30,292 nucleotides of DNA from positions 1-30,292 of IMG/VR virus record IMGVR_UViG_3300048549_001067, one strand, 5' to 3'. Numbering within the stretch: the first letter of the stretch is position 1; every line of letters starts with the position of its first letter. Under the pieces are notes generated by a model. The model searched no databases. It had not been told where the DNA came from and worked only from the letters and a program-made list of their open reading frames with translations. Made by a program: the position numbers and the translations under genes. The stretch comes from a virus. Shown here piece after piece: positions 16,181 through 28,776 of the stretch.

Positions 16181-17086
16181 CTAGGCCAGGATGGCGAAGC
16201 CGGAACGGATTGCCGCGTTTCGGTTCTCATATGTACGGGCTCTGAGCACCAGCCCGCAAACCTGGCCGCCCGTGTCCCCTGGTCTCCAGTCCGTCACGTT
16301 ACCATCGAACACCGGAACACCGAAGAATGCAGCCGGGATGGTTTGACGGATTGCAGCCTTACCACACTTTCCGCCCTCGTTATAGAACACAACCGCAACC
16401 ACTCCGCCCGATGCTATCACTCGGCGGGCCTCAGTCTCATTCGTTCCATCATATGAAAACGTGATGTAGTAATTAGGAGCGATCCACCCTGAGCGCCCGT
16501 GTTCCTTAGTGTAATCGTAGAACACTATCCCAGGATGCGCGGCAATAATTCCCAGATCTTCCCAGTGAATGTCAGAAAACATATTGAGACGCGCGCCGAT
16601 AGTCTCAGCCCCTTTATTCCTTTTCTCGTGGTTCGTCAACTCGCGGTCCAAGGTAGCCAGGAACCACTCGCGGCATACAACAAACAAAACTGTTTTGGCT
16701 AGGCGCGAGGCCATCACCCCAGGCACGGGGCCTTGTCCCTGGTGCGCGAGGCACGGCTTTACGCATACCTTCGCCATCATGCAGAGATTGACACCAGGAA
16801 TAAGGCAACCACGCGCAGGAAATAATGACAGCCCAACGGTAGGAATTTCATTCTTGGCTGTCTTGGGATTGTCGTCCCCCTTTCCTAGTAATTGTTTGAC
16901 GCGCACCGCGTGAGGCATCCGGCCCCCTTCCACCTGCCATACTCGCGGAGAAATACGTGTAATGATGTACGGTTTTAAACCGATACACGGCACGGTATAG
17001 CCCGTCTCGGTGATAGTAATCTCAGGACCGTTTGCAATTGGCGGCGATTGATTGCCAGCCGTTGGTTGCTCAAGAATCGTTAACAT
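16181..17086 (-). CDS. GP88-family phage protein
   Basis: The protein has 301 residues; the ATG at 17084-17086 has GAGGG eight bases upstream. I recognise the GP88 ('gene product 88') pattern: a cysteine cluster GCLIPGVNLCMMAKVCVKPC (C94, C102, C108, C112) followed by a helix, then FVVCREWFLATLDREL, the hallmark ARLNMFSDIHWE (165-176), FYDYTKEHGR and YYITFSYDGTNET. The cluster suggests a metal or iron-sulfur centre. Proteins of this family are common in phages and some plasmids, but I know no established activity. It is the first minus-strand gene left of the opposite-strand island; the 211 bases between them must hold promoters for both directions. Confidence 0.8.
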   Translation of the reverse strand: MLTILEQPTAGNQSPPIANGPEITITETGYTVPCIGLKPYIITRISPRVWQVEGGRMPHAVRVKQLLGKGDDNPKTAKNEIPTVGLSLFPARGCLIPGVNLCMMAKVCVKPCLAHQGQGPVPGVMASRLAKTVLFVVCREWFLATLDRELTNHEKRNKGAETIGARLNMFSDIHWEDLGIIAAHPGIVFYDYTKEHGRSGWIAPNYYITFSYDGTNETEARRVIASGGVVAVVFYNEGGKCGKAAIRQTIPAAFFGVPVFDGNVTDWRPGDTGGQVCGLVLRARTYENRNAAIRSGFAILA

Positions 17087-17200: not shown

Positions 17201-17227
17201 GGGCTGTGGGCTGTGGGCTGTGGGCTG
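17201..17227. repeat. Tandem 7-bp repeat GGGCTGT, nearly four copies
   Basis: GGGCTGT is repeated three times and followed by GGGCTG, in the intergenic region between the divergent GP88-like gene and the plus-strand island. The rest of 17087-17297 holds GC-rich alternating GCGCGC tracts and no gene; promoters for both directions are expected here, but none is clear. Confidence 0.7.
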
Positions 17228-17297
17228 AAGAAACCCCTTGTTTTATAGGGCGGATCGTCGGCTGGCTTATGTTCTCTACAGAGAGGAGGACAGCGTC

Positions 17298-17372
17298 ATG
17301 GAAGACAACAAATTACAGATCTTGTTTGAACTGATTCGTTTAATTCTTGAACTACTAGAGAGGGCTAACTGA
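17298..17372 (+). CDS. 24-residue leader microprotein
   Basis: ATG at 17298 is preceded by GGAGG at eight bases. The product is a single leucine-rich amphipathic helix (LQILFELIRLILELLE, then RAN). Its stop overlaps the ATG of the next gene as TGATG. Strong ribosome site, perfect coupling and head-of-operon position argue it is translated. It could be a regulatory leader, a peptide that binds a membrane or partner, or only a coupling device. Confidence 0.55.
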   Translation: MEDNKLQILFELIRLILELLERAN

Positions 17373-17572
17373 TGAGTTGTTTCAACCAGATACCAATGCA
17401 CCTAAGAACAAACGGTCAGGTATCAATGCTTTGCAAGCAGGTTGCTTGGCTGCTTGGTGGAGAGGTCGAGGTTACATGGCATTCAACCGACGACGGGCTG
17501 CATTTAGTTTGCAAGGACCTGGACTACGACATGAGTGGAGAGATCTACAAAACAAATGAGGAGGACGAATGA
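17372..17572 (+). CDS. Hypothetical protein, 66 aa
   Basis: The ATG at 17372 overlaps the stop of the microprotein (TGATG), and the end overlaps the next gene by ATGA. The sequence starts with a helix (GQVSMLCKQVAWLLG), then strands EVEVTWHSTDDGLHLVCKD and an acidic end (YKTNEEDE). No family is recognised. The small size and full coupling suggest co-production with the Zn-ribbon protein that follows. Confidence 0.6.
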   Translation: MSCFNQIPMHLRTNGQVSMLCKQVAWLLGGEVEVTWHSTDDGLHLVCKDLDYDMSGEIYKTNEEDE

Positions 17573-17823
17573 TTAAGTCTGTCAAGTGTGGAGAGTGCAA
17601 CCACGACGTGGTTGTGCCTGAAGATAAAGACCGTGGGCATGGGTTCGCTTTGCACTTGGTCGAGTGTGATAAGTGCGGCGCTACTGCTGGCGGAGGTAAC
17701 GGTGGGACAGGTGAGATCACCACCTGGATGTCCGCAAGATCTCGAAGCCGTGCATTGGCTGAGATACACGCTCAAGAATGTGATGCTTTTAACAACGAGT
17801 TTTATGGAAGGGGTAATTGGTAA
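17569..17823 (+). CDS. Zinc-ribbon small protein, 84 aa
   Basis: AGGAGG lies a few bases before the ATG at 17569, which overlaps the previous stop. Cysteines at KCGEC (C7, C10) and ECDKC (C33, C36) form a clear four-cysteine zinc ribbon. The stretch after it, GTGEITTWMSARSRSRALAEIHAQECDAFN, is a helix reminiscent of the 'EAIxAWN' end of Lar-type zinc-finger proteins, which some phages use against restriction; this resemblance is loose. It could equally be a DNA- or RNA-binding adaptor. It belongs to the plus-strand operon. Confidence 0.6.
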   Translation: MIKSVKCGECNHDVVVPEDKDRGHGFALHLVECDKCGATAGGGNGGTGEITTWMSARSRSRALAEIHAQECDAFNNEFYGRGNW

Positions 17824-18167
17824 TGAAAAGTTTTTTTGGTGTCGTAGATATCAAGGCAAGCCTAGCCAACTTGGACAGCCTAGGTTTTGTCGATCAGGAT
17901 AGCGACGAATGGGTTTCTATGTGGCATGACTTGTCAAGTATCCCATGCAATAAAAGGCTGTCCGATCCTGCAACTGCAGCCGATGAGAACGGCGAAGTCT
18001 GGCAGTACATGGGTAGTTTCGAGGCCCCACTAAACAAGATCCGAAAGACAGGGGTCGAATGGGTTTGGGTTCACGAGTTCCGGCATCGAAACCACCCTAC
18101 CATTGGCCGAAGAACTGTACATCTTCGGGCGAGTAAGAACTTTTGCATAGAAGGGGGGGACAAATAA
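17823..18167 (+). CDS. Hypothetical protein, 114 aa
   Basis: The ATG at 17823 shares a base with the previous stop (TAATG) and has GGAAGGGG upstream. The product mixes strands and helices with several tryptophans (SDEWVSMWHDLSSIPCNKR, GVEWVWVHEFRHRNHPTIGRRTVHL). The HEFRH stretch looks like HExxH on paper but sits in a Trp/Arg-rich context with no zincin-type helix, so I do not call a protease. Function is unknown. Confidence 0.55.
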   Translation: MKSFFGVVDIKASLANLDSLGFVDQDSDEWVSMWHDLSSIPCNKRLSDPATAADENGEVWQYMGSFEAPLNKIRKTGVEWVWVHEFRHRNHPTIGRRTVHLRASKNFCIEGGDK

Positions 18168-18227
18168 GTTCAGAACAATTGTGAGTTCGTATTTTTAAAC
18201 CGTTTCAATCAAGAGGGTAACACCACC

Positions 18228-18479
18228 ATGAGTAATTTAAATAAAACTGAAGTCGCTTTAGGAGTTGAGGCAATAGTCACTGACAATGCTTGCATGTATG
18301 AGGAGGACATTGACTGTGGATATCTCTGCATCCAGGGGGAGGTAGCCAAGCAACTGAGGAAGGCAGTTGCCGTGGCTCGTGATAGTGATGCATTCACTGA
18401 CCTTGACCGCCAGCGTTTAGATGTAGCCACCAAGGCTATTGATATCACTTTTCCGAAGGAGGTAACCAAGGACGAATAG
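18228..18479 (+). CDS. Hypothetical acidic protein, 83 aa
   Basis: The ATG at 18228 has AGAGGG upstream. The protein is acidic and helical: LGVEAIVTDNACMYEEDIDCGYLCIQGEVAKQLRKAVAVARDSDAFTDLDRQRLDVATKAIDIT. Three cysteines sit in the first half. No domain is known. A 60-base gap with an AT-rich stretch (GTATTTTTAAACC) before it may hold a weak promoter or only a leader; after it comes a small hairpin (18500-18518). Confidence 0.55.
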   Translation: MSNLNKTEVALGVEAIVTDNACMYEEDIDCGYLCIQGEVAKQLRKAVAVARDSDAFTDLDRQRLDVATKAIDITFPKEVTKDE

Positions 18480-18499
18480 TCCTAAGTACGGTGGAGGCA

Positions 18500-18518
18500 G
18501 GTGCTCATCGTGAGCACT
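18500..18518 (+). other. Short perfect hairpin before the 300-aa gene
   Basis: GTGCTCA and TGAGCAC form a perfect 7-bp stem (8 with a flanking G-T pair) around the loop TCG. No T-tract follows, so it is not an ordinary terminator. It lies 54 bases before the ATG of the 300-aa gene and may shape or protect the mRNA. Confidence 0.5.
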
Positions 18519-18571
18519 TGACCTCTTACCGAAACTACAGGTGTACAAAAACTTTTAAACAGGAGGCAGAG

Positions 18572-19474
18572 ATGACAGACAAGAAACTAAGTTCGGAGCA
18601 TGCGATTGTTTTCTGGGATAGCGTCAGGTGTCCACGGTCAGCAGTCGAAGAGGTCTTCGACAAGATTGGTTACAAGAAACACGTACCACAAGTAGACCAC
18701 TACTCTGCACTCAAGAGGGTAGCAAAAGAGATATGCGGACCAGAGGATGGGAGCACTCGATTGTTTCCCCTGGCTGGTGACCTCAAGGATTATGTGGCAG
18801 TTGAGGTCCGACGATTCGAGAAGGGTAGCAAGAAGAACGACCTACCTTTCCTCTACTCAGTGGGTGTCAGTGAGGATAACAAGATTGTGATTCTCAACTA
18901 TGACGCTATGGAATGCAGGACAATAGGCCAGAGTCCATACGGTCCCACCGATGAGGCCATCAAGACTATGGAACGGGAAGGCACTGCGCTATGGAATGAA
19001 GAGATTCAGTACATGCCAGCCCACGATTTGACCACCGCTATCTCTGCATTGGTCAAGGATCACAGTGGGTTTTTGTTGCGTGACACTGGCGTGGTCTGGT
19101 ACATGCCAGTGGAATTGATTGACCACTATCAAACAGTGGCAACTGAACTCAAGCAACACAAGGTAGACATGGCTTGTGTTCGCTTCAGTCCTGTACTCAA
19201 CGATGAACTATTAGAATTCGTCGGGCGTGAGTTGAAGACCCAGGCTCAGACCATGATCGACGGTCCTCTCGATGAGGTTGTGGACCTAGTCAATAAAGGC
19301 CAGAAGATCTGGCGATCAGACGGTCAGGCTAGCCGCATGGAAAAGGTATGCCAAGCCGAGGCACTAGTGCAAAGCAATAGCAAACTAGTAGGCGATTGGT
19401 CCGAGCATTTCAAACAGGCTGCAGCAATGGCGAAGACCCGCATCGCTGAGGCAGCAATCAAACAGCACTCTTAA
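18572..19474 (+). CDS. 300-aa protein, probable partner of the AAA+/VWA pair
   Basis: The ATG at 18572 has AGGAGG five bases upstream, preferred over a frame from 18491. The protein is mostly helical and acidic. It starts MTDKKLSSEHAIVFWDSVRCPRSAVEEVFDKIGYK, has a strand-rich middle (DYVAVEVRRF, LPFLYSVGVSEDNKIVILNY, GVVWYMPVELIDHYQTVATEL) and ends with long helices (SEHFKQAAAMAKTRIAEAAIKQ). I recall similar phage proteins of unknown function, perhaps the group called DUF6744, beside MoxR-type ATPases, but cannot verify it. It lies 25 bases before the ATPase gene. A substrate, adaptor or regulator of the pair is inferred from position only. Confidence 0.65.
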   Translation: MTDKKLSSEHAIVFWDSVRCPRSAVEEVFDKIGYKKHVPQVDHYSALKRVAKEICGPEDGSTRLFPLAGDLKDYVAVEVRRFEKGSKKNDLPFLYSVGVSEDNKIVILNYDAMECRTIGQSPYGPTDEAIKTMEREGTALWNEEIQYMPAHDLTTAISALVKDHSGFLLRDTGVVWYMPVELIDHYQTVATELKQHKVDMACVRFSPVLNDELLEFVGRELKTQAQTMIDGPLDEVVDLVNKGQKIWRSDGQASRMEKVCQAEALVQSNSKLVGDWSEHFKQAAAMAKTRIAEAAIKQHS

Positions 19475-19499
19475 TCACCACTCTTGAAAGGAGAACATC

Positions 19500-20576
19500 A
19501 TGAGTAATCAAGCAGCCTGGATATGTATCCAAGCAAAGCAGCCTACCGTTTTGGTAGGTGGTACGGGCGAGGCCAAGACAGCAATGGCCGTGGCCTGTGC
19601 CAAGACACTAGGACTGAAACCGTTTGTACTTATTCCTAGTCAGCATATGCCAGAAGATATTGGAGGCATACCACATATCGAAAACAAAAAGGCAATCATG
19701 GTATTCATGGATTGGCTACTCGATATGACAGGCCCAGGTCATATGCTAATCGTGGACGAGTTGAACACAGCCACTCAGTCCATGAGGCCATGTCTTCTCA
19801 GTCTGCTGAATGAGGGACGGATAGGCAGTACCTACCTGCATAGCAGTACGCTTCGGGTAGCAGCCATGAACCCTGAAGACTTCGCCCCTAACGCCATGCC
19901 ACTTGAGGCTAGCATTAACAACAGACTGTACCACCACCAGTGGCAGTTGCCGTTTGATTCCTGGCTAACTGGAATGATGAACGGCGGGCAGTTTGAAATG
20001 CCGGAAGACTTCCCGATCATTGGTGACTACTCTAGTCACGTTCCGAAATGGTGTCGTCGTATCGGTTATCTATTACGTCGAGCGCCTGCTATTCGTAAGA
20101 CTACTGAGGTTCCAGCAGACGAGCCAGCATTCCCTAGCCTGAGAGTATGGGAAGATCTTGCTCAGTGTCTGTCAGCAGCCGATAGCATTGATGCTCCAGG
20201 CGAAGTGAAGGCAGAGATTGCAGGCGGATTGGTTGGACGTGCAGCAGCAGCACAACTCATGGCTAGCGTAGCATCTAGCATGCTTTACGATGCGTCCGAA
20301 GTTGTCGATGGAAAGACAGCAATCAATTACGACAAGGCACGGATAGACCAACTCGTTTACCTGCCATGCGGTGTACTTGAAACACTGGCTGATGATCACG
20401 AGCCAGCCAGGGTAAGGCGGGCAGTCGATGTCCTCTTAGAAATGGGAGACAACGGACTGCTGGATTGCGTGAGCCCTGTCATATCTGACATCACTAGGCA
20501 GTATGACTATCAACTGGACCAGGACCACATGAACCAGTACGGCACGTTGCTTGCAAAGATGGGGGGTGCAGCATGA
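19500..20576 (+). CDS. MoxR-type AAA+ ATPase
   Basis: The protein has 358 residues; ATG 19500 has AAAGGAG upstream. Walker A is GGTGEAKT (20-27), Walker B LIVDE (D86, E87), sensor 1 is in RVAAMNPED (N124), and EASINNRL (137-143) ends in the arginine that usually acts in trans. The early break 'GEAKT' and 'MPEDIGGIP' are typical of MoxR/CobS-like ATPases. Such ATPases form hexamers and, with a VWA partner, remodel proteins or insert metals. The VWA gene overlaps the end (ATGA), so the two are made together. The C-terminal third is helical and carries no extra domain. The target cannot be read from sequence. Confidence 0.9.
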   Translation: MSNQAAWICIQAKQPTVLVGGTGEAKTAMAVACAKTLGLKPFVLIPSQHMPEDIGGIPHIENKKAIMVFMDWLLDMTGPGHMLIVDELNTATQSMRPCLLSLLNEGRIGSTYLHSSTLRVAAMNPEDFAPNAMPLEASINNRLYHHQWQLPFDSWLTGMMNGGQFEMPEDFPIIGDYSSHVPKWCRRIGYLLRRAPAIRKTTEVPADEPAFPSLRVWEDLAQCLSAADSIDAPGEVKAEIAGGLVGRAAAAQLMASVASSMLYDASEVVDGKTAINYDKARIDQLVYLPCGVLETLADDHEPARVRRAVDVLLEMGDNGLLDCVSPVISDITRQYDYQLDQDHMNQYGTLLAKMGGAA

Positions 20577-21811
20577 GCAAGCACGTTGCAAGCCTGATGT
20601 GGCGGGCAAGTAACAGACTGTATGAACGAGCACCCTACCTCACCCATTTGTTTTCAATCATGGGACACAACATCACCAAGAGTGTAGACACAATGGCTGT
20701 TGATAAGTGTGGTCGGTTGTATATCAACCAGGAGTTTGCTGAGTCTATCAGCGTTGATCAATTCTGTTACTGCTTATTGCATGAGATGCTGCATATCGTG
20801 GCCAATCATGTTAAGAGATTCGATGAGGTTGACGGATGTACTAAGCATGACCTCACCGTCTGGAACTATGCAGTAGATCTATCTGTTCAGCAGAAGTTAG
20901 CCACCGAGTACGGCGAGTCCGAACCTGATGGCATCATCACTATCGATGGCACTATCCCTGGCACTAACACCAAGTGGCTCGACGTTCCAGGCCTAGGTAG
21001 GAACATGACATGTGAGAAGTATTATGAATTAATACATCCACTCTGTCCTATTGGTGGCGGTGATGGTGGCAATCGCAATCAGGTTTTAGATCCTGCTAAG
21101 TCTGGCAGCAACAGCGGCGGATGCTCTCAGCCATATGAACTAACAAGCGATGGCACTCAGCAGAGTATGGTCGAGTCTCATGTATCGATGGTGGACAGGG
21201 ACATGGAACGACAGATTGTAATGGAAGGTACTCTAGCCGGTGAAGTTAAGAAGGAACTGGACTGCAGGTTAAGACCACAGCCTGACCCATACCCCATCTT
21301 AACAAGAACGTGTGCTAGATCTGTGCGCTCACCACTTGGCCAGCCTCTGTCTACCTATCGCATCATGAACAGGAGGCAGCAGCCAGGACAGGCACGACGA
21401 CGTGGCTTTGATTACATAGGTCCCGAGTGCAGCATCATCATAGACACGTCTGGTTCTATGCAAGGACTAGAGTCTCGTGCATTCACAGCCATTGCTCAGG
21501 GATTGAAGTCAGTCTCTAGCCCACGAGTCATAGCGTTTGATACCGAGATTCAATCGGCCAAGCGCATGACCTGTGCTAAGAACTTTGAGTTTGTTGGGTA
21601 CGGCGGGACTGCTATGGACAAGGCAATCATAATGGAGGACGAGGAACACCGGCCCGATGCAATGGTTGTGGTGACTGATGGCATGACAGCATGGCCTGCG
21701 AAACCAACACGAGCACGGCTGGTTGTTGTACTCGTTGGAAGACTTAGGTCTAGACCTGTGCCAAGTTGGGCGAAGGTCGTTGACTGCAGAGAGGAGGTCA
21801 TCAATGTCTGA
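20573..21811 (+). CDS. VWA protein with N-terminal zincin domain (COG3864/CobT-like)
   Basis: The protein has 412 residues. The N-terminal domain holds LLHEMLHIVANH (H70, E71, H74) followed by WNYAVDLSVQQ, the layout of a zinc metallopeptidase. A low-complexity linker (about 158-190, Gly/Asn/Ser-rich) joins it to a VWA domain with a complete MIDAS: DTSGSM (D291, S293, S295), GGTAM (T346) and TDG (D369). This two-domain form is the usual partner of MoxR ATPases. Both active sites look intact, so it may cut or reshape a target delivered by the ATPase. In phages these genes are often labelled CobS/CobT, but I see no cobalamin pathway here. Translation is coupled to the ATPase by ATGA. Confidence 0.88.
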   Translation: MSKHVASLMWRASNRLYERAPYLTHLFSIMGHNITKSVDTMAVDKCGRLYINQEFAESISVDQFCYCLLHEMLHIVANHVKRFDEVDGCTKHDLTVWNYAVDLSVQQKLATEYGESEPDGIITIDGTIPGTNTKWLDVPGLGRNMTCEKYYELIHPLCPIGGGDGGNRNQVLDPAKSGSNSGGCSQPYELTSDGTQQSMVESHVSMVDRDMERQIVMEGTLAGEVKKELDCRLRPQPDPYPILTRTCARSVRSPLGQPLSTYRIMNRRQQPGQARRRGFDYIGPECSIIIDTSGSMQGLESRAFTAIAQGLKSVSSPRVIAFDTEIQSAKRMTCAKNFEFVGYGGTAMDKAIIMEDEEHRPDAMVVVTDGMTAWPAKPTRARLVVVLVGRLRSRPVPSWAKVVDCREEVINV

Positions 21812-21878
21812 TCCTGCATGGATACTAATTCTAATTTGTTTCTACACTTACTACTGCACTGTGATTGAGAGGCGATAG
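21804..21878 (+). CDS. 24-residue transmembrane microprotein
   Basis: ATG 21804 follows a perfect AGGAGG six bases upstream and overlaps the VWA stop by eight bases in another frame. The product has a hydrophobic core (WILILICFYTYYCTVI) after MSDPA and before ERR, so it should span a membrane once with the charged end inside. Its stop TAG ends two bases before the ATG of the next gene. Coupling and ribosome site suggest it is real. A membrane anchor or signal linked to the MoxR/VWA pair is inferred. Confidence 0.55.
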   Translation: MSDPAWILILICFYTYYCTVIERR

Positions 21879-21879
21879 C

Positions 21880-22101
21880 ATGAAGACTAAAGTAATTAAT
21901 AAACTAAAGGGAAAGACTATTGCTGACATTGAGTACGAGAACAGACCAATGGATGGCATAGGCCTAGGTGGATACACTTGCATTAAATCAATCACCCTGG
22001 ATGATGGAAGCAAGATCACGTTTGGTATCGGTGAGACGGAGCATTCGTACTCAGAGCCATGCTTCACGGTGCTAGGCCAGAGAGGAGGATTGTACCGTTG
22101 A
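21880..22101 (+). CDS. Hypothetical small beta-rich protein, 73 aa
   Basis: ATG 21880 follows the microprotein's TAG by one base; a longer frame from 21865 is less likely. The sequence is TKVINKLKGKTIADIEYENRP...GYTCIKSITLDDGSKITFGIGETEHSYSEPCFTVL, alternating strands with a glycine-rich loop, like a small barrel. Function is unknown. The end overlaps the recombinase start (TTGA). AGAGAGGAGG inside its 3' end is the ribosome site of the recombinase. Confidence 0.6.
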   Translation: MKTKVINKLKGKTIADIEYENRPMDGIGLGGYTCIKSITLDDGSKITFGIGETEHSYSEPCFTVLGQRGGLYR

Positions 22102-22913
22102 TAAATGTCACCACTTGCTACGGGTATGGCCGTCACTCTACCTCTAAGCAGACAGGTAAAAATACTGAGGGCGATCAGAAGGACAGGTGCTTTCAGTATT
22201 GGAAGGAACAGTTACAACCTCACGGTATAGAGTGGGGCGGATGGTTCTACGACAGAGCCAAGTCAGGCAGCAGCCGATGGGACGAGCGTGACTTCGGTCG
22301 ATCACTCGCACTTAGGATGCGACCTAAAGATTGGCTGATCACAGACCACAACGACCGACTGTTCCGAAACAATCATGACGCATGGTACTGGCACGAAAAG
22401 TTTAGTGAACGTCAGATACATGTCCGCATGCTTAACATTCTCGGGACAGAGAACCTTGAGTTCCCCGAGGCTAACATGGTTAAGGGACAAGCATACCTAG
22501 CAGCACAGTATCAGAGGGACAACTGTTCTCGGAAAGAAATTAAACGTGTGCGTGGGTGCAAGGAAAAGGGTAAGCCGTGGTCTGCATCTGCCCCGCCAGG
22601 ATGGAAGCGTAAGTTTGTGTCAGGTGAATGGGTGTTTAGATCCAACGATCATGAACGTGCAGTGATTGCTTTCATGCACACACTGTGGGAAGAGGGCATG
22701 AACATGGGACGCATAGCGCAATGGTGGTGCAGTGAAAAGCGTAAGGGTCGATACGACAATAAGCCAATGCGATCTATGTCTACTGCTGCAATAGTTAGAT
22801 GGTGCATTCGAGCACGGATCATCAACTACCCACAAGACATAGGCAACCGTGACGAGTTCACTAAGAAGTGGACTGCAGGAGAACTAGGGAAGGTTCCCCT
22901 CAATTCCCCGTAG
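22098..22913 (+). CDS. Serine recombinase (resolvase/invertase family)
   Basis: The frame starts at TTG 22098, with AGGAGG nine bases upstream and TTGA overlap; an ATG at 22059 has no ribosome site. The 271-residue product begins CYGYGRHSTSKQ, where R12, S14 and Q18 fit the YxRxSxxxQ catalytic motif. It continues with DRAKSGSSR, then DHNDRLFRN (D86, R87, R90), the usual 'DRLxRN' block, and a compact C-terminal part (CKEKGKPWSASAPPGWKRK, IAQWWCSEKRK) like the start of a large-serine-recombinase DNA-binding domain. It is much shorter than large integrases. It may invert or move DNA, or mark how the island entered. It ends convergently with the sigma-like gene, overlapping by 30 bp. Confidence 0.75.
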   Translation: MINVTTCYGYGRHSTSKQTGKNTEGDQKDRCFQYWKEQLQPHGIEWGGWFYDRAKSGSSRWDERDFGRSLALRMRPKDWLITDHNDRLFRNNHDAWYWHEKFSERQIHVRMLNILGTENLEFPEANMVKGQAYLAAQYQRDNCSRKEIKRVRGCKEKGKPWSASAPPGWKRKFVSGEWVFRSNDHERAVIAFMHTLWEEGMNMGRIAQWWCSEKRKGRYDNKPMRSMSTAAIVRWCIRARIINYPQDIGNRDEFTKKWTAGELGKVPLNSP

Positions 22914-23399
22914 CCTATCAATTGCAGCACGTACTCGTTTGCTGATTGTACGGGGATCGCATCGCTGTTCATTGCTGAGTTGCTCAAGTGTTATCTGTTC
23001 TATCAGCCGATCCTCAAGCAGAGCACGGTCGTAAACAGTCATCAGCCTCAGTGCTCGCATGGCTCTGAGTTCCTGTCGAGTCCTCAATGCAGAAGGCTGA
23101 GGGTCTAAGATCTGCTCGGTGCATATGTATCGACCATCTTGTTTCTGCTGATTCAACACCGCTCGATAGAGGGCGTGTCGTATGGCCGATGAGAAGTATG
23201 TGGTTGGCTTAGACTTTGTCTTATTGTATGTGAATGCAGCCATGCACACTGCCACCTGGGCTACACTCTCCATGTCCACCCTCTTCATGGCTGGCCGAAG
23301 ATCCGAGTTCCTCTTCCAGAACGTAGCGATAGTTGGCCTGATAAATATCAAGCATTCCTCTGCTAGTTTCTGCTGCCTCTTATTGAGCCGCCTCCCCAT
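22884..23399 (-). CDS. Phage-encoded sigma-factor-like protein
   Basis: The protein has 171 residues; AGGTGAT precedes the ATG (23397-23399). The first half carries a sigma region 2-like helix set (DMESVAQVAVCMAAFTYN, YFSSAIRHALYRAVL). The last 55 residues (LMTVYDRALLEDRLIEQITLEQLSNEQRCDPRTISKRVRAAIDRLRGI) have the region 4 helix-turn-helix pattern 'LxxRLxExxTxEQLSxxxxxxxxTISxRVxxAIxRLR'. Together they resemble a small ECF-type sigma factor, which would bind host RNA polymerase and direct it to phage promoters. The repeated TTGACA boxes are obvious candidate targets. It could instead be a helix-turn-helix regulator with a sigma-like end. It closes the minus-strand membrane module. Confidence 0.6.
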   Translation of the reverse strand: MGRRLNKRQQKLAEECLIFIRPTIATFWKRNSDLRPAMKRVDMESVAQVAVCMAAFTYNKTKSKPTTYFSSAIRHALYRAVLNQQKQDGRYICTEQILDPQPSALRTRQELRAMRALRLMTVYDRALLEDRLIEQITLEQLSNEQRCDPRTISKRVRAAIDRLRGIEGNLP

Positions 23400-23400
23400 A

Positions 23401-23664
23401 TCACCTACGCCTTCGGTAAGTTGTCTTCACCTGGGGGACGGGGCAGTTTCCGTCTGGACAATCCGGCTGAGGGCTGTCAATTGATGGACCCTCAATAATA
23501 ATTGGAGGATGTATTAACTCTTCTAACTCCTCGTCCTCGTCAACGATTTCTTTTTGCAAGGACGAGTACGCAACGCACACTGCACCTGCTGCCTGTGCGT
23601 CAACGACAGGGACCTGCTGCTCATCAGCGGATAGAAGGGTGAGCCAGTAAACAATCCACCTCAT
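23401..23664 (-). CDS. Small exported or anchored protein, Cys/Pro-rich end (87 aa)
   Basis: ATG 23662-23664 has AAGGAG six bases upstream; a GTG just before it is less likely. The N-terminus (MRWIVYWLTLLSADEQQ) is short and hydrophobic, like a signal or anchor. Then comes an acidic stretch (EIVDEDEELEELIHPP) and a proline/cysteine end (PDCPDGNCPVPQVKTTYRRRR), with two cysteines six apart and a basic terminus. No family is recognised. It is coupled to the genes on both sides. The run of membrane proteins around it suggests an envelope role. Confidence 0.5.
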   Translation of the reverse strand: MRWIVYWLTLLSADEQQVPVVDAQAAGAVCVAYSSLQKEIVDEDEELEELIHPPIIIEGPSIDSPQPDCPDGNCPVPQVKTTYRRRR

Positions 23665-23891
23665 CACAAACTCCTTGAGTGATCGACATAAGATTCATCT
23701 GGAGCATGGCGGTCATACACTGGCGTGGGTGCAGGCTCTGCGAACAGCATTAGTTTGAGTCCAAGGCCTGCAGCATTTCGTATCATGCGAAGGAATGGAC
23801 GGTCTGTTACTACCCCCCTGCCAGACATAGACATGCCGATAGCAAACGCAAGTAGCAGAGCCACAATTAAATTTTTGTTTCGGTTATTCAT
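23664..23891 (-). CDS. Small membrane protein, 75 aa
   Basis: The ATG (23889-23891) lies inside the last codons of the protease gene, so translation is coupled; the stop overlaps the next start. The N-terminus NKNLIVALLLAFAIGMSM is one transmembrane segment or signal. A second weakly hydrophobic helix (AAGLGLKLMLFA) precedes a charged tail with APTPVYDRHAPDESYVDH. It could be a holin-like or anchoring protein; the short length is compatible with a holin, but there is no proof. Confidence 0.5.
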   Translation of the reverse strand: MNNRNKNLIVALLLAFAIGMSMSGRGVVTDRPFLRMIRNAAGLGLKLMLFAEPAPTPVYDRHAPDESYVDHSRSL

Positions 23892-24906
23892 TAGTCATCC
23901 ATCCGTCATGATTGACAGGTCTCCATTTAAAAGCCACTGAACTAATAGCCCAGCAGTCACCGCTGGATAACATGCGTTCAACTACAGATCGCTCGGCCCA
24001 GAACACGCCATCGGGTAGATCATCTGGATACCTGGGTGCTGTGTACGTTATGTAGTCACCCCAAGAGTTAAGGATTGCAGCGCCCTCCGTGTCGAAGCGC
24101 ACCCCAATACATCCCATTGCGTGGGACCAACGCCCTTGAGGACGAGCCCACGAACCCTCTCCTACAGTGCGGGTAAATCCTTGGCCCGAGCACATGAGGA
24201 CGGGATGACCGCTGGTTACTGCAGCAACAAGTTCATCCCATGTCTTAACCTGTGCGACGTACAAGCACGGCTGCTTCTTAGCCTCATCATCCAGGCGACC
24301 ATTGTCATCTCGTCCGCCGCAACCATACGCACCGTACTCGGCATCGAGATCAGTAGATTGTTTTGTAGTGTCAGCCGTGGGGTATTGCTTGCGCCATATA
24401 ACTCCCCAATCTCGCAGCCATTTACTAACCGAGTAGCCAGTAGATCCAGGTGAGTAGCCAGCGTAATCTTTGTTACGTGCTTCGACCCTGCTACCACCAT
24501 AGCAAGCAGCGGGGCTGGCCAAGAGTGGTGGTTCATCACGATCACCCGTCACATAATCTACGCATGCCGATGCATACACACAGTGGGCTGCGGCATGGCC
24601 AACACATGAACCAATGTTACCCTGGTTACTTGGCTCAAACTTGTGGCCGTAAACTTCACGATGACAGATGTTCATCGCTCGCCAAAGGTAGGTGTCTACA
24701 TGATCAGCCCTGTCCATAACGTCAGGTGCAGCATCACTAAAGGTTGGCTTGTCTAGTGACGCAGCAAACTTACGAGCACCCTCTGGATCTGGTAGGTATC
24801 CATAGTTACTCACGTCCCTTGGTCGCAGAGATAGCGCCAGGAATAATGCAATGACAACAGTTAGTGCGAATGCTAATGCATCACGGTTCGGCTTGAACTG
24901 CGGCAC
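23884..24906 (-). CDS. Membrane-anchored papain-like cysteine protease (C1 family)
   Basis: The protein has 340 residues; it starts at GTG 24904-24906 with GGAG nine bases upstream. Residues 9-27 (DALAFALTVVIALFLALSL) are one N-terminal membrane segment. The rest is a C1-type papain fold with the expected order: oxyanion Q95 and nucleophile C101 in QGNIGSCVGHAAA, His262 in WSHAMGCIGV, and Asn280 in ILNSWGD. All three catalytic residues are present. Many other cysteines (PLLASPAACYGG, YGCGGRDD) may form disulfides, which fits a periplasmic or outside location. It could degrade an envelope or host protein, take part in lysis, or protect the host from other phages. The role is inferred. Confidence 0.8.
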   Translation of the reverse strand: MPQFKPNRDALAFALTVVIALFLALSLRPRDVSNYGYLPDPEGARKFAASLDKPTFSDAAPDVMDRADHVDTYLWRAMNICHREVYGHKFEPSNQGNIGSCVGHAAAHCVYASACVDYVTGDRDEPPLLASPAACYGGSRVEARNKDYAGYSPGSTGYSVSKWLRDWGVIWRKQYPTADTTKQSTDLDAEYGAYGCGGRDDNGRLDDEAKKQPCLYVAQVKTWDELVAAVTSGHPVLMCSGQGFTRTVGEGSWARPQGRWSHAMGCIGVRFDTEGAAILNSWGDYITYTAPRYPDDLPDGVFWAERSVVERMLSSGDCWAISSVAFKWRPVNHDGWMTNE

Positions 24907-25339
24907 GAGAGGCTTCTCCTATCTCACGGTAGCAGTTAATCCACTGCTTCCTCTGAGCGTCGGTAACAACCCCTCCTGAATTACCAAGTTTCTCATCAAG
25001 GTAGTCACTGACTAACTTGCGAACCCTTGGCTGTCTATCCCCTATTGATTCCCCTCTGCACAGAAACTCTCTGCTTCTTGTGCGTAGGCTATCGAATGCG
25101 GTAGCCGTCTGCATGCTTGGAGTTTCTAATCCCCCGTCGAACTCTATGACATCAGCAATCTCTGTGGCCATAGCCGCCAAGAGTTGTGCGTCTTCACTTG
25201 CAGTCTCACTTATGAAAGCACCACGAAGATCTAACTCCTGGTTGTACGGCACAGGCTCAGGCGCAGGCTCAACTTGTGCGGTGTTCATGTACACCACAAG
25301 TGCAGCAAGCCCAAGTGCTATGGCTATACGCGCTCTCAC
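24881..25339 (-). CDS. Secreted or anchored protein, 152 aa
   Basis: GTG 25337-25339 overlaps the previous stop (GTGA), and GGGGAG is upstream. Residues 3-18 (ARIAIALGLAALVVYM) are a signal or anchor. The mature part is acidic and helical (ASEDAQLLAAMATEIADVIEF, RVRKLVSDYLDEKLGN, WINCYREIGEASRAAV). Two cysteines occur. It overlaps the protease start by 26 bp. No domain is known. Co-translation with the protease suggests an inhibitor, substrate or partner, which is a guess. Confidence 0.55.
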   Translation of the reverse strand: MRARIAIALGLAALVVYMNTAQVEPAPEPVPYNQELDLRGAFISETASEDAQLLAAMATEIADVIEFDGGLETPSMQTATAFDSLRTRSREFLCRGESIGDRQPRVRKLVSDYLDEKLGNSGGVVTDAQRKQWINCYREIGEASRAAVQAEP

Positions 25340-25578
25340 TCTTCACTCCCCTTCACCAGTGCTAAGGTCAGTATGTTTATTGCCTCTGCTTCATCAGCAT
25401 CCAGGGCCTGAGTAGAGGCTAGACGCTGACGCACTACTTGCAAACTACTAACTGCTTCTATGTATCCGTGGTTCTCCACCTTCTTCTGCTTAGGTAGCGG
25501 AAGGAAATCGGCTGGGCTTTTCTTTACAGGCCAAAGCAATGTGACTGCAGCAGCAGCAATCAATATCCAAACAATCAT
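25336..25578 (-). CDS. Small membrane protein, 80 aa
   Basis: ATG 25576-25578 overlaps the previous stop (ATGA) with no Shine-Dalgarno site, so it depends on coupling. One transmembrane segment (IVWILIAAAAVTLLW) is followed by a basic turn (PVKKSPADFLPLPKQKK) and a helical tail (SSLQVVRQRLASTQALDADEAEAI) with coiled-coil character. The topology of TM plus coiled coil is that of spanin-type or anchor proteins, but no lipobox or partner makes this certain. Confidence 0.55.
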   Translation of the reverse strand: MIVWILIAAAAVTLLWPVKKSPADFLPLPKQKKVENHGYIEAVSSLQVVRQRLASTQALDADEAEAINILTLALVKGSEE

Positions 25579-25919
25579 GACAGATCAATTCTTATGAGAG
25601 GTAGCAGTGATTCAACAGCACCCGCTGCCAGTGAAAGCACGAGTGCTCGTGTTGCACTACGCATCAGAAACCATATTGGTTTGAGATACATAGGCACGAC
25701 TCGATCAGCAAATGTATCGAACATGTATTCAACGAGCCTCAGAACCTCTGCCTTCTTGTCCACGCTAGGCATCTGCATTCTGTCTAGCAGTGTGATAGCA
25801 AGACGCATTCCGTCCAGGGTAATCGTTGCAAGTTCGGATACGGTCAGGCCGTCCTCAGCCTTAACCTTTACAGAGAAAACAAACTCTGAAATTTTATCTG
25901 AAAAATTTTTGTCAGGCAT
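25575..25919 (-). CDS. Protein with hydrophobic C-terminal half, 114 aa
   Basis: ATG 25917-25919 has GGAG nine bases upstream. A charged start (KNFSDKISEFVFSVKVKAEDG) leads to helices (TVSELATITLDGMRLAITLLDRM, KKAEVLRLVEYMFDTFADRV) and a long hydrophobic end (YLKPIWFLM, ALVLSLAAGAVESLLPLI). It could bind or insert in a membrane. It is the first gene of the coupled membrane module. A holin-like role is conceivable but unsupported. Confidence 0.5.
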   Translation of the reverse strand: MPDKNFSDKISEFVFSVKVKAEDGLTVSELATITLDGMRLAITLLDRMQMPSVDKKAEVLRLVEYMFDTFADRVVPMYLKPIWFLMRSATRALVLSLAAGAVESLLPLIRIDLS

Positions 25920-26247
25920 TACAAGTTACTCCAAATACCACCCTGCTTATGGGCTTGGTTGAGTCGTTGACAGCAAATGATTTCAATGCAGCAGCAGCCT
26001 TATCCATGTCTATATCCAGGCACTCGCAGCACTCACTGAAACTAACTAGCCCCAGGTTAGTGTCTGCCACCCAGTTCTTCGCAGCCCTTTTACACACCAC
26101 ATCTTCCTTGCGGTGCAATGCTTTGCGGCGAAAACTTGTAGCAGTCTGCACTAGTATGCACCCGCACAGCGCGCGCCACGCACCAGCAATCTCATCCGGT
26201 CTTCGGTCTGCGATTTGTTGATCGATAATCTGATCGAGTTGATCCAT
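25912..26247 (-). CDS. Small conserved phage protein (fSxCExLxID motif), 111 aa
   Basis: ATG 26245-26247 has AAAGGA upstream. The core AWRALCGCILVQTATSFRRK, then RAAKNWV...LVSFSECCECLDIDMDKAAAAL, matches a pattern I recall from small phage proteins: 'W...ARxWhxxxxxxxFSFxxxCexLgiDpxxvR'. No activity is known to me; the C-terminal helix looks like half a helix-turn-helix. Its first bases overlap the DUF3310 tail by 56 bp and its end overlaps the next gene by eight. Confidence 0.55.
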   Translation of the reverse strand: MDQLDQIIDQQIADRRPDEIAGAWRALCGCILVQTATSFRRKALHRKEDVVCKRAAKNWVADTNLGLVSFSECCECLDIDMDKAAAALKSFAVNDSTKPISRVVFGVTCNA

Positions 26248-26476
26248 CCTTGGTTCCTTTAATCAGTTCAACCTTCCGTGTTAAATAAAACAGAGCCTTC
26301 TCGTAGTCTTCTAAAGTCTTCTCGTCATTAGACATGCCCTGTTCTCTCTTCTTGCCTGCTCGCCACAGATACTTAATGACCTGTCCATCTAGGTAATCAA
26401 ACTCCTGTGCTATCGTGATGCACTCGACACCTGATGGATGCCAGTTGTAATGGCTTGGATGATTGACACTGTCCAT
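26192..26476 (-). CDS. DUF3310 protein
   Basis: The protein has 94 residues; ATG 26474-26476 has GAGGGGA upstream. The family hallmarks are clear: VNHPSHY (4-10), ECITIAQ, the helix VIKYLWRAGKK (33-43) and DYEKALFYLTRKVEL (58-71). The family is widespread in phages and some call it a nucleotide kinase, but I know no firm biochemistry. The last 18 residues (DGSTRSDYRSTNRRPKTG) lie over the start of the next gene in another frame and are not family-typical. It lies among replication and nuclease genes. Confidence 0.85.
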   Translation of the reverse strand: MDSVNHPSHYNWHPSGVECITIAQEFDYLDGQVIKYLWRAGKKREQGMSNDEKTLEDYEKALFYLTRKVELIKGTKDGSTRSDYRSTNRRPKTG

Positions 26477-26479
26477 AAG

Positions 26480-26800
26480 TTATTCCCCTCTGTACTTCAT
26501 ACTTACCGTTCCATATATCGCCCAGAAAATTGAATCGTGATCGTCTTCAATCGGGACAGGACACTCTTGCCGCAGTGCATGTACCCATTCCTCAATCAGT
26601 GCGTCGATCATTACCTGCTCTACGTCCATCGTTACTCTTATTAGCACTCGCTCGTCGTCTATTAAACACAGCCCGTGGAGCCCCGGCATTGCTTCGGCTG
26701 TCGGTGTCCTCACTACCACTGGTCGTTCGGTCGGAAAGTTCTTGCGCAGCCAGCGCACTACGCGCTTGAACCTCGGTGTCGTTTGCTCGTTCGTAGGCAT
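26480..26800 (-). CDS. Degenerate zincin-like protein (EEWVHAL), 106 aa
   Basis: ATG 26798-26800 has GAGGT seven bases upstream. The product has a basic start, then strands (RPVVVRTP, LHGLCLIDDERVLIRVTMDV), the helix VMIDALIEEWVHALRQE and HDSIFWAIYGTVSMKYRGE. I recall phage proteins with 'LxHEWAHAL ... H..xfW..YG' of minimal-zincin type. Here the first metal-binding His is Glu (EEWVH instead of HEWxH), so zinc protease activity is doubtful, or the family uses another set of ligands. Its 5' third overlaps the nuclease tail. Confidence 0.6.
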   Translation of the reverse strand: MPTNEQTTPRFKRVVRWLRKNFPTERPVVVRTPTAEAMPGLHGLCLIDDERVLIRVTMDVEQVMIDALIEEWVHALRQECPVPIEDDHDSIFWAIYGTVSMKYRGE

Positions 26801-27119
26801 GTACTAACCTCGATAAGTCCTCAAGCCGAATGGTCAACATCCATCCGTTGACCGACCTGTTCGGCCTGTGCATAACTACTGGAGCCCGACGACCGGATTG
26901 CCTCACGGCAGTGGCTAAAGCCCGTGGAACATTGAGTTTTTCTACCCGCTTAATCTCCCAAAATATGTCCGGCGTTTCCGTCACCTCAATGTCAGGAGAG
27001 TTGCCGTCTGTCCAGCCCGAGTGTTGCTGGGTTCTATGACATTGCCAACCAAACCGTTCTCGGAGTTCCTTGCAGGCTAACAACTCCCCGACCTTTCCCT
27101 TCCGATTTGAATTTGGCAT
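26592..27119 (-). CDS. PD-(D/E)XK nuclease, resolvase-like
   Basis: The frame starts at ATG 27117-27119 with a weak GAAAG site and gives 175 residues. The core (1-110) has GKVGELLACKELR (E12), RTQQHSG, SPDIEV (D43), WEIKRVE (E55, K57), VVMHRPNRSVNGWMLTIRLEDL. This is the E..D..ExK metal site of Holliday-junction-resolvase or VRR-NUC-type enzymes, which cut branched or recombining DNA. From about residue 112 the tail is Ser/Arg/Asp-rich and overlaps the next gene by 209 bp in another frame, as in the endonuclease VII and TerS-like genes. The core is secure; the last third may not be functional. Confidence 0.75.
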   Translation of the reverse strand: MPNSNRKGKVGELLACKELRERFGWQCHRTQQHSGWTDGNSPDIEVTETPDIFWEIKRVEKLNVPRALATAVRQSGRRAPVVMHRPNRSVNGWMLTIRLEDLSRLVHAYERANDTEVQARSALAAQELSDRTTSGSEDTDSRSNAGAPRAVFNRRRASANKSNDGRRAGNDRRTD

Positions 27120-27128
27120 GTCAATCTT

Positions 27129-27542
27129 TCAGTAAGGCCAAGCAGGCGTGTTCTTTGTGCGGTCCTCTATAAATTTTTCGGGTATCGGACAAACGTCGTA
27201 AGCGAGCGCCCTCCGTCCCGTGAGCGAAGCGAGTTTGTCGAGGTCCAAGTATCCATCCTCTTCGAGTTTCGCCGCCAAGACCGCGCCTTTAGGAATCTCT
27301 CCGTATTCAGGAAGGCGGTCATGAATCGCTGTGTGACACCTGGAGCACACGGCTGTGTAATTTTCTTCACAATTTTTTCTACCTGCTCCGCCGACGATGT
27401 GATGCAACTGGAGAGTACGTCCTGGTTTGTTATCCGGCCAATGACATATCGCACACCTGTTGTGCAGCAACATGTAATCCTGTGGAGAAAGTTCCTCATC
27501 ACTCTTCTCCCCCTTCAAACGATCCAACTCGTACAAATCCAT
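27129..27542 (-). CDS. HNH endonuclease, 137 aa
   Basis: ATG 27540-27542 has GAGGTG upstream; the longer frame from 27710 adds a low-quality N-terminus and overlaps the previous gene further. The core is CAICHWPDNKP (C30, C33), LQLHHIVGGAGRKN (H47, H48), ENYTAVCSRCHTAIHD (N61, C66, C69, H70, H74), a zinc-supported HNH site. A helical tail follows (AAKLEEDGYLDLDKLASLTG). It could act in DNA repair, packaging or recombination, or be a free-standing homing enzyme. It sits nine bases before the next nuclease gene. Two nucleases in a row suggest a DNA-processing module. Confidence 0.8.
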   Translation of the reverse strand: MDLYELDRLKGEKSDEELSPQDYMLLHNRCAICHWPDNKPGRTLQLHHIVGGAGRKNCEENYTAVCSRCHTAIHDRLPEYGEIPKGAVLAAKLEEDGYLDLDKLASLTGRRALAYDVCPIPEKFIEDRTKNTPAWPY

Positions 27543-27957
27543 CTTCACACCTCGCATATTGCTCGTGACTTTGACGCAGTCCGAGCGCGATACGTTTACA
27601 CTCTTCACTGAAGACGGCGACTGAGGTGCTTCTGGACATCGAATGTGTGCAACATGCAAATAGGCTTGTCGCGACTCGTGAATTTCTATGAGACTCATGC
27701 ACATAAACATTTACCTGTAACTGATCTTTGTCTTCTCTTCGCCAGTTACTTACCGAGCACCAGCCAAGCACCTCTGGACTATCCGTAGGTGTGTACGCAT
27801 AAGAAATAATTACGATGCGATCATCGTCACTTAATTCTTTTGATTCGATTCTTTCAAACATCTGTTGCGATTCACTGTGCGGGTTGCACAACAAACCACA
27901 CTGCCTTGCTACATGCCAAGGCAACTCGCCTGCAAAAACTGTATTGATGTTCAACAT
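27499..27957 (-). CDS. GNAT-like acetyltransferase-fold protein, 152 aa
   Basis: ATG 27955-27957 has GGAG seven bases upstream. The order fits the GNAT fold: DDDRIVIISYAYTPTDS, LGWCSVSNWRR (a strand), LQVNVYVHESHRNSRVATSLF (81-100; the strand/loop that should bind acetyl-CoA), VAVFSEECKRIALGL, then YARCEDGFVRVG. The usual R/Q-x-x-G-x-G/A loop is changed to RNSRVA, so cofactor binding is plausible but weakened. The target is unknown; phage GNATs may modify host or phage proteins. A structured leader precedes it. The end overlaps the HNH start by 44 bp. Confidence 0.5.
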   Translation of the reverse strand: MLNINTVFAGELPWHVARQCGLLCNPHSESQQMFERIESKELSDDDRIVIISYAYTPTDSPEVLGWCSVSNWRREDKDQLQVNVYVHESHRNSRVATSLFACCTHSMSRSTSVAVFSEECKRIALGLRQSHEQYARCEDGFVRVGSFEGGEE

Positions 27958-27967
27958 TTAATTTCTC

Positions 27968-28032
27968 CGTTGCAGAAACAGGCAGCGCTAACGTCGAGTT
28001 CATCCCTTAAACCCAGGTGCAACGCTGCCTGT
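27968..28032 (-). promoter_or_regulatory. Leader with two competing stems before the GNAT-like gene
   Basis: As transcribed on the minus strand, ACAGGCAGCG (28023-28032) pairs perfectly with CGCTGCCTGT (27978-27987), ten base pairs with a 35-base loop. CGTTGCA (28018-28024) can instead pair with TGCAACG (27968-27974), seven base pairs that share two bases with the first stem and end next to GGAG, the ribosome site. The two forms could switch translation. There is no T-tract. Confidence 0.45.
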
Positions 28033-28042
28033 CCCCGGCAAA

Positions 28043-28414
28043 TTAGAAGTTGGTCGCGAAATCATCTGATGATTCTTGTGACCGCTGTTGCTGCATATCT
28101 TTCCAGTTAACCCAACCGTTGTTGGGAAGCCAATCACCAGTGGCCTTGTCTTTCCTCTTAGGGAAAAATCCATGACCATCTTTTCTTCTGCCTAGTGCCA
28201 GCGATGCACCGCTGGACATGCACTTCCACTCGAAGAATGTGTAGTCACCATTAGTCCTGACTACAGGGATGATGTCTGTCCCCCCTGTCATTCCACATTC
28301 CTTGCCGCATGACAGAAGTTCTGCCATCTCGGCCATGTTGCTAAACAGTTCCTCTGCTGTCTCACCCTCGACCTGTACTGTGAAGTTGCCGATAGTTGCT
28401 TTAAGTTGTTTCAT
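28043..28414 (-). CDS. Hypothetical phage protein (DNA-metabolism neighbourhood), 123 aa
   Basis: ATG 28412-28414 has AAAGGA upstream. It starts MKQLKATIGNFTVQVEGETAEELFSNMAEMAELL (strand, then helix), has one C-x3-C (LSCGKECGMTG), and a core DIIPVVRTNGDYTFFEWKCMSSGASLALGRRKDGHGFFPKRK followed by a linker ending GWVNWKDMQQQR. I recall similar 'YxExxC......xxxGxxKxGxxxFPKR' phage proteins of unknown role encoded near recombination or single-strand-binding genes. DNA binding is possible but not shown. It follows promoter-like copy 3. Confidence 0.55.
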   Translation of the reverse strand: MKQLKATIGNFTVQVEGETAEELFSNMAEMAELLSCGKECGMTGGTDIIPVVRTNGDYTFFEWKCMSSGASLALGRRKDGHGFFPKRKDKATGDWLPNNGWVNWKDMQQQRSQESSDDFATNF

Positions 28415-28448
28415 TTAAATTCCTTTCGTAAAAAAACTTTTGCTGGTT

Positions 28449-28517
28449 TTATTTTCCCTGCTTGTCAAGAGCAGAGAACTTCAGATACGCAGCGCGGTTA
28501 GTGTGCTTGCACCCCAT
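28449..28517 (-). CDS. Possible 22-aa microprotein
   Basis: ATG 28515-28517 begins a 22-codon frame, MGCKHTNRAAYLKFSALDKQGK. GGAAGGG lies directly against the ATG, too close to be ideal. The same frame stays open for 47 further codons upstream without an accepted start codon. Promoter-like copy 3 lies inside it, so the frame may be accidental. Confidence 0.2.
   Translation of the reverse strand: MGCKHTNRAAYLKFSALDKQGK
28463..28476 (-). promoter_or_regulatory. CTCTGCTCTTGACA promoter-like box, copy 3
   Basis: Identical to copy 1. It lies 48 bases before the start of the 123-aa gene, separated from it by GGGAAAATAAAACC and a ribosome site. A clear -10 is missing. It would drive the gene run from 28414 towards 25912. 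Confidence 0.5.
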
Positions 28518-28776
28518 CCCTTCCGAAGACAGGGATCTGCCTCCGGTTGGGTAAGCCGTGCTCGCCTTATGCAGGGTCTTCGGATATGGACCAGGACGCT
28601 GGGGCTTAACTACTAGATCAACTACTAGCGCGGAGCCTGGAGTTTCGTGCGAACAGAGGGCTACTTATGCGGATACCGCTCCTGCTTATAGGCAGGCTTT
28701 GTTTATGCTCGATGTTTTTTTATTTCTAAACCGCAGTAACTTATCGAGTAAATTAAAACTGCGTGATCAATCTGTA

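Follow-up and report, generated by a model that had tools for sequence, protein, structure and literature searches.

The opposite-strand block

The DNA analysed here (the window) comprises positions 1 to 30,292 of the IMG/VR record IMGVR_UViG_3300048549_001067 and stems from an uncultured phage lineage of ~60 kb. Between positions 17298 and 22913, a codon-usage gene caller placed eleven ORFs on the plus strand and all remaining called genes of the window on the minus strand, in agreement with an earlier note that had pointed out this opposing block. Its genes are:

17298-17372, plus strand: 24-aa amphipathic micro-ORF that opens the block, with the strong Shine-Dalgarno sequence AGAGAGGAGG
17372-17572, plus strand: ORF
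17569-17823, plus strand: 84-aa CxxC protein, possible zinc ribbon (sub-threshold Pfam match)
17823-18167, plus strand: ORF
18228-18479, plus strand: ORF
18572-19474, plus strand: 300-aa third protein, divergent DUF6744 (PF20529), from relatives over the cut-off and predicted fold
19500-20576, plus strand: MoxR-type AAA+ ATPase (phrog_1297; N4 gp24-like), from AAA_5, phrog_1297 and BLASTP
20573-21811, plus strand: DUF2201 zincin-like and VWA/MIDAS protein (phrog_1314; N4 gp25-like), from PF13203 and PF09967
21804-21878, plus strand: 24-aa one-helix membrane micropeptide (predicted), overlapping the VWA stop, with a strong Shine-Dalgarno sequence and a position kept in relatives
21880-22101, plus strand: 73-aa ORF (called gene), coupled to the recombinase start
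22098-22913, plus strand: serine recombinase with resolvase N-terminal domain (PF00239, E 1.7e-13)

The start of the 300-aa protein was revised to 18572, and the recombinase (271 aa) most likely starts at TTG 22098 and not at ATG 22059, because the former is preceded by a strong Shine-Dalgarno sequence and yields an N-terminus resembling that of its relatives. A second contig, 99.95% identical to the window with 6 SNPs, spans 18473-29808, which from 18473 rightwards rules out a chimaera arising in a single assembly.

At the left border, tandem GGCTGTG repeats (~17202-17228) lie in the intergenic stretch from which the GP88 gene and the plus-strand block diverge, and the 22 bases upstream of the first micro-ORF show 82% resemblance to those in front of the micropeptide at the VWA stop. 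In the window, the GP88 gene (16181-17086) is a minus-strand gene, but in the relative G004 (57781-58695) it is found on the strand of the block, and has therefore switched sides of the divergent region. Scans of the window for sigma-70 promoters and terminators performed at chance level, and their candidates were not accepted.

The MoxR/VWA pair and its third protein

The MoxR and VWA genes overlap by four bases. The MoxR protein possesses a conserved Walker A (GGTGEAKT) and a conserved Walker B motif (LIVDEL), exceeds the Pfam cut-off for AAA_5 and matches phrog_1297 (E 2.6e-29); against the bpMoxR profile it stays below the cut-off (13.3 vs 27 bits). The 412-aa VWA protein combines an HExxHxxxxH zinc site (HEMLHIVANH at residue 70) with a complete MIDAS (D291-x-S-x-S, T346, D369), and H70, E71, H74 and H79 as well as the MIDAS residues are invariant in a 12-member alignment. 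It furthermore matches DUF2201_N and DUF2201 (PF13203, PF09967) and phrog_1314 (E 5.1e-38). Motifs, Pfam and PHROGs hence bear out the earlier description of a MoxR ATPase overlapping a protein with both HExxH and complete MIDAS motifs, with protease activity of the DUF2201 part being a motif prediction only. The same zincin/VWA family is labelled 'HNH endonuclease' in phrog_1314 and in many GenBank/RefSeq phage records, which, given the HExxH and MIDAS motifs in the sequences, looks like a spread annotation error.

As judged by homology, the pair itself is already known as gp24/gp25 of N4 (Schitoviridae), which share the MoxR plus DUF2201 zincin/VWA composition, both PHROGs and detectable homology at 23% identity with the window proteins (BLASTP E 9e-15 for MoxR vs gp24 and 1e-9 for VWA vs gp25). 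Relatives of N4 gp25 are present in 651 phage records; as scan queries, alignments of distant N4-type relatives gave no result. In contrast to the window, the N4 genome is without a DUF6744 relative in a PF20529 search, and no micropeptide was found after gp25. Both genes figure on the core-gene list of N4-like phages (PMC7650795) and are transcribed as middle genes in N4 (PMC4193335), and in the literature we found no paper on the function of the MoxR/VWA pair in any bacteriophage. Among cellular systems, NorQ/NorD and RavA/ViaA likewise join a MoxR protein to a VWA partner, and a model of the window VWA protein gave weak Foldseek matches to Ro60 and to NorD of the NorQD complex. Cellular clients are known for both NorQ/NorD and RavA/ViaA; we know of no DUF6744 partner in either.

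The 300-aa protein itself passes the gathering score of no Pfam family (0 families) and is therefore filed only as a divergent relative of DUF6744. Among its alignable homologues at the same position (aligned as A6), those of L130 (43.5 bits) and L125 (35.1 bits) exceed the DUF6744 cut-off of 27 bits, and those of G009 (26.0 bits) and L129 (22.0 bits) fall below it. Its AlphaFold2 model (pLDDT 86.4, pTM 0.78) predicts an alpha/beta domain with long C-terminal helices, and Foldseek matched this model to four viral proteins (E 2e-15 to 5e-11). One of them, L7TK87 of HVTV-1 (383 aa, E 4.8e-11), is most likely identical with HVTV1_25, with which we equate it through its length, and HVTV1_25 scores 69.5 bits as a DUF6744 protein. 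From relatives over the cut-off, together with a fold shared with a DUF6744 member, we conclude that the third protein belongs to DUF6744 as a divergent member. Comparison with the PDB returned no result for the profile against sequences and no significant match for the model against folds, so that any role proposed for DUF6744 is a guess. No paper was found in the literature on DUF6744, nor on the phage MTATph1 discussed below, and two pattern scans of genome contigs yielded no cellular relatives of the 300-aa protein, at a sensitivity too low for exclusion.

DUF6744 is also linked, independently, with other MoxR/VWA types, namely in Moorella phage MTATph1, in one 47-kb contig and in two further contigs. 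MTATph1 encodes on one strand DUF6744 (CDS0119, 206.6 bits), then bpMoxR (CDS0115, 180.5 bits) about 0.7 kb away, then a VWA_CoxE protein (CDS0114). This is the order of the window, from which MTATph1 differs by its bpMoxR-type ATPase, a VWA_CoxE protein without DUF2201 match and small genes between DUF6744 and bpMoxR. In L146, bpMoxR, DUF6744 (70.2 bits) and VWA are consecutive; in L144, a DUF6744 stretch (30.7 bits) directly follows a MoxR-DUF2201 pair; and in L145, a near-threshold DUF6744 match lies 2.2 kb before the DUF2201 gene. The window terminase found no match in L144, L145 or L146. DUF6744 thus accompanies MoxR and VWA proteins of more than one type. HVTV-1 (Druskaviridae) resembles the window in encoding a MoxR-like AAA, a VWA and a DUF6744 protein (HVTV1_25), but its DUF6744 gene stands apart from the pair, and its 743-aa VWA protein is without DUF2201 match.

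Two database records deserve a remark. MTATph1 (OR602862.1) seemingly carries two MoxR/VWA-type systems (112731-116922 and 149232-150305), one with DUF6744 and one DUF2201-like. L010 (MT835968.1, 'Bacteriophage sp.') contains long ORFs that, judged visually, look bacterial (sugar-kinase-like, transketolase-like), and therefore may be a bacterial contig.

Gene order, inheritance and the VWA-coupled micropeptide

Gene calls and profile search recovered the order DUF6744 > MoxR > VWA (hereafter the triad) in 13/13 phages with this VWA subfamily (12 distinct ones plus L142), most of these records being VWA-selected, as further triad phages were recruited through a VWA-alignment scan. The idea that the pair travels with the 300-aa protein is thereby upheld, and the compared phages held no case of triad members scattered apart, an outcome that the earlier note had named as refuting. 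In a search of 40 terminase relatives, the three records with a VWA gene were also the three with a 300-aa gene. Co-evolution within the triad is apparent from distance correlations of 0.947 (300-aa/MoxR), 0.954 (300-aa/VWA) and 0.950 (MoxR/VWA), with lower values between DUF6744 and its neighbours, the recombinase (0.80) and a cysteine peptidase (0.74). On the terminase tree, the triad is present in 12/13 members of one clade and in none of a sister group of seven, with two label changes, suggesting mostly vertical inheritance. The 300-aa profile revealed no third protein beside the pairs of N4, S-TIM5, RM378, phiFa or V5-type phages, and the association with DUF6744 thus characterises a subset among the MoxR/VWA systems.

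One relative, G004, possesses the block and the recombinase, with some 31 small ORFs where the triad would stand. Loss of the triad in G004 is probable but not proven, because most records were VWA-recruited and the G004 sequence is without terminal overlap.

The gene coupled to the VWA stop is an ORF of 24 codons (MSDPAWILILICFYTYYCTVIERR), which starts 7 bases before the end of the VWA stop codon and is preceded by AGAGAGGAGG. Nine other triads harbour ORFs of 24-25 codons that encode a single hydrophobic stretch and start 10 bases before the end of the VWA stop, so that a micropeptide of the same place and length (24-25 aa) accompanies 10/13 triads. A strict scan detected such ORFs at 9/13 VWA stops vs 2/333 other stops (Fisher p 2e-13, an optimistic value given the relatedness of the phages), and substitutions are rarest at second codon positions in three groups of relatives (16/87, 3/24 and 25/99). 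The 24-aa membrane peptide of the earlier note hence stands as a real gene by its conservation, with its insertion in the membrane predicted from hydropathy only. No micropeptide was found at the VWA stop in the subclade of L116, L125 and L135, nor after the VWA gene in MTATph1 and L146. A gene of 24 codons is easily missed in annotation and became recognisable here through conservation of gene order.

Other members of the block are less constant. The 84-aa protein displays CxxC pairs and sub-threshold Pfam matches only (S27e, E 0.0037), and its gene forms no cluster with genes of three or more triad-locus relatives; likewise, the 73-aa ORF belongs to no Pfam family and has no sequence relative among three or more triad loci. 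As neither is common to the relatives, both were left out of the module, and the zinc-ribbon gene loses the membership that the earlier note had given it.

Possible functions of the module

The earlier note had seen in the block a self-contained cassette, serine recombinase included, and this mobile reading can draw on the recombinase encoded at the end of the block and on a perfect 14-bp inverted repeat around it (22049-22062 and 23057-23070). A terminase scan of IMG/VR, however, gave 76 relatives with longest contigs of about 60 kb, and their loci speak otherwise. In G001 and G009, the same opposite-strand block, with the recombinase at its end, is situated between a gene like that at 22884 and the structural genes, and VWA and terminase genes lie on opposite strands in these two and in 10/10 further records with both. 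The recombinase ends the opposite-strand block in 12/12 compared triad loci as well as in the triad-less G004, where it always adjoins the 22884-23399 gene or neighbours of that gene and points towards them. Because they are present throughout the tested relatives, including G004, orientation and recombinase are, on comparative grounds, assigned to the phage backbone and not to the triad; the normality of this orientation in all tested relatives is the very outcome that the earlier note had named as counting against a cassette. No flanking direct repeats stand out, the 3' end of the block overlaps its convergent neighbour gene, and the inverted repeat, considered as an inversion site, has no counterpart at that position in nine relatives and is probably due to chance. 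Together with the mostly vertical distribution of the triad, this leaves transfer by its own serine recombinase largely refuted and very improbable.

Three other functions were weighed. The module could act as a virion or assembly chaperone that matures structural or ejection proteins of the phage, a role proposed for p618/p892 of ATV, in which p618 is a virion protein binding p892 and p387 (PMC4124505), and suggested by the N4-like roseophage RPP1, in which a second structural module is located near the gp24/25 homologues (PMC4193335). In all tested relatives, however, the module sits among the small ORFs of the opposite-strand block, at a distance from the structural genes and running against them, and it seems to be missing from a near-complete relative whose capsid genes are the same, which makes this function unlikely. 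A conflict module, in which DUF6744 would be the sensor and which would disable a defence of the host or a rival phage, is somewhat more doubtful. The ternary MoxR-vWA systems described as conflict systems also comprise a conserved third component of variable kind (PMC7159879), and the ATPases of MTATph1 and L146 match bpMoxR; but the third component here is DUF6744, Pfam found no VMAP, iSTAND or beta-propeller partner, the genes are phage-borne, variable effector fusions were not seen, no PADLOC model matched the window proteins, and the distribution is mostly vertical instead of patchy. More doubtful still is a metal-insertion machine of the CobS/CobT or NorQ/NorD kind that supplies metal to an enzyme of phage or host, for instance a reductase. 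MoxR/VWA pairs are known to insert metals (PMC13036017), haloviral pairs were named CobS/CobT (PMC8651126), and in MTATph1 a ribonucleotide reductase adjoins the DUF6744 gene, yet the families common to the triad neighbourhoods include no metalloenzyme client gene, and the membrane peptide would be left unexplained.

As the overall explanation we favour, with a probability of about one half, a membrane-tethered remodelling machine, similar to NorQ-NorD or RavA-ViaA, which would be encoded by the core of the block, a vertically inherited module of four genes in this lineage (DUF6744, MoxR, DUF2201 metallopeptidase/VWA and 24-25-aa membrane peptide). By analogy, a MoxR hexamer would pull or twist its MIDAS-VWA partner, much as the NorD finger enters the pore of NorQ, which in turn remodels the NorD linker (PMC13036017). 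Complex formation has a viral precedent in ATV, where the VWA protein p892 and p387, when bound by the MoxR protein p618, both raise the ATPase activity of the latter (PMC4124505). The client might be held by the zinc domain of the VWA protein together with the DUF6744 protein, the latter serving as client adaptor, while the micropeptide may recruit the assembly to the inner membrane for the remodelling, or possibly clipping, of a membrane complex of the host or the phage in the course of infection. If the middle expression of N4 gp24/25 is any guide, this action would precede the late genes. Against the proposed machine speak the separate position of DUF6744 in HVTV-1 and the missing micropeptide in the L116/L125/L135 subclade, MTATph1 and L146.

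With the pair itself known, the new elements of this viral MoxR/VWA machine are its DUF6744 partner and its VWA-coupled micropeptide. A broader proposal is that the MoxR/VWA machines of tailed viruses, bacterial as well as archaeal, generally contain DUF6744 as a third subunit, and that in this lineage the micropeptide, translationally coupled to the VWA gene, is a fourth subunit placing the machine on the host membrane; as a whole, it has in our view even odds. Tying an unannotated family and a micropeptide to MoxR/VWA defines a concrete complex for purification and a testable location.

Further small or unassigned proteins occur beside other VWA genes. The Thermus phage phiFa (L006), an unrelated MoxR/VWA phage, contains a 25-aa hydrophobic ORF (MLELLTMAVIGVMVMVLVALHDERQ; 7094-7171) a few bases after its VWA stop, possibly a second case of such a micropeptide. 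In L121 (6900-9142), L127 and L131, and likewise in L116 (12390-13385), L125 and L135, the VWA gene is followed by proteins of 330-400 aa without convincing Pfam match, which may represent extra partners.
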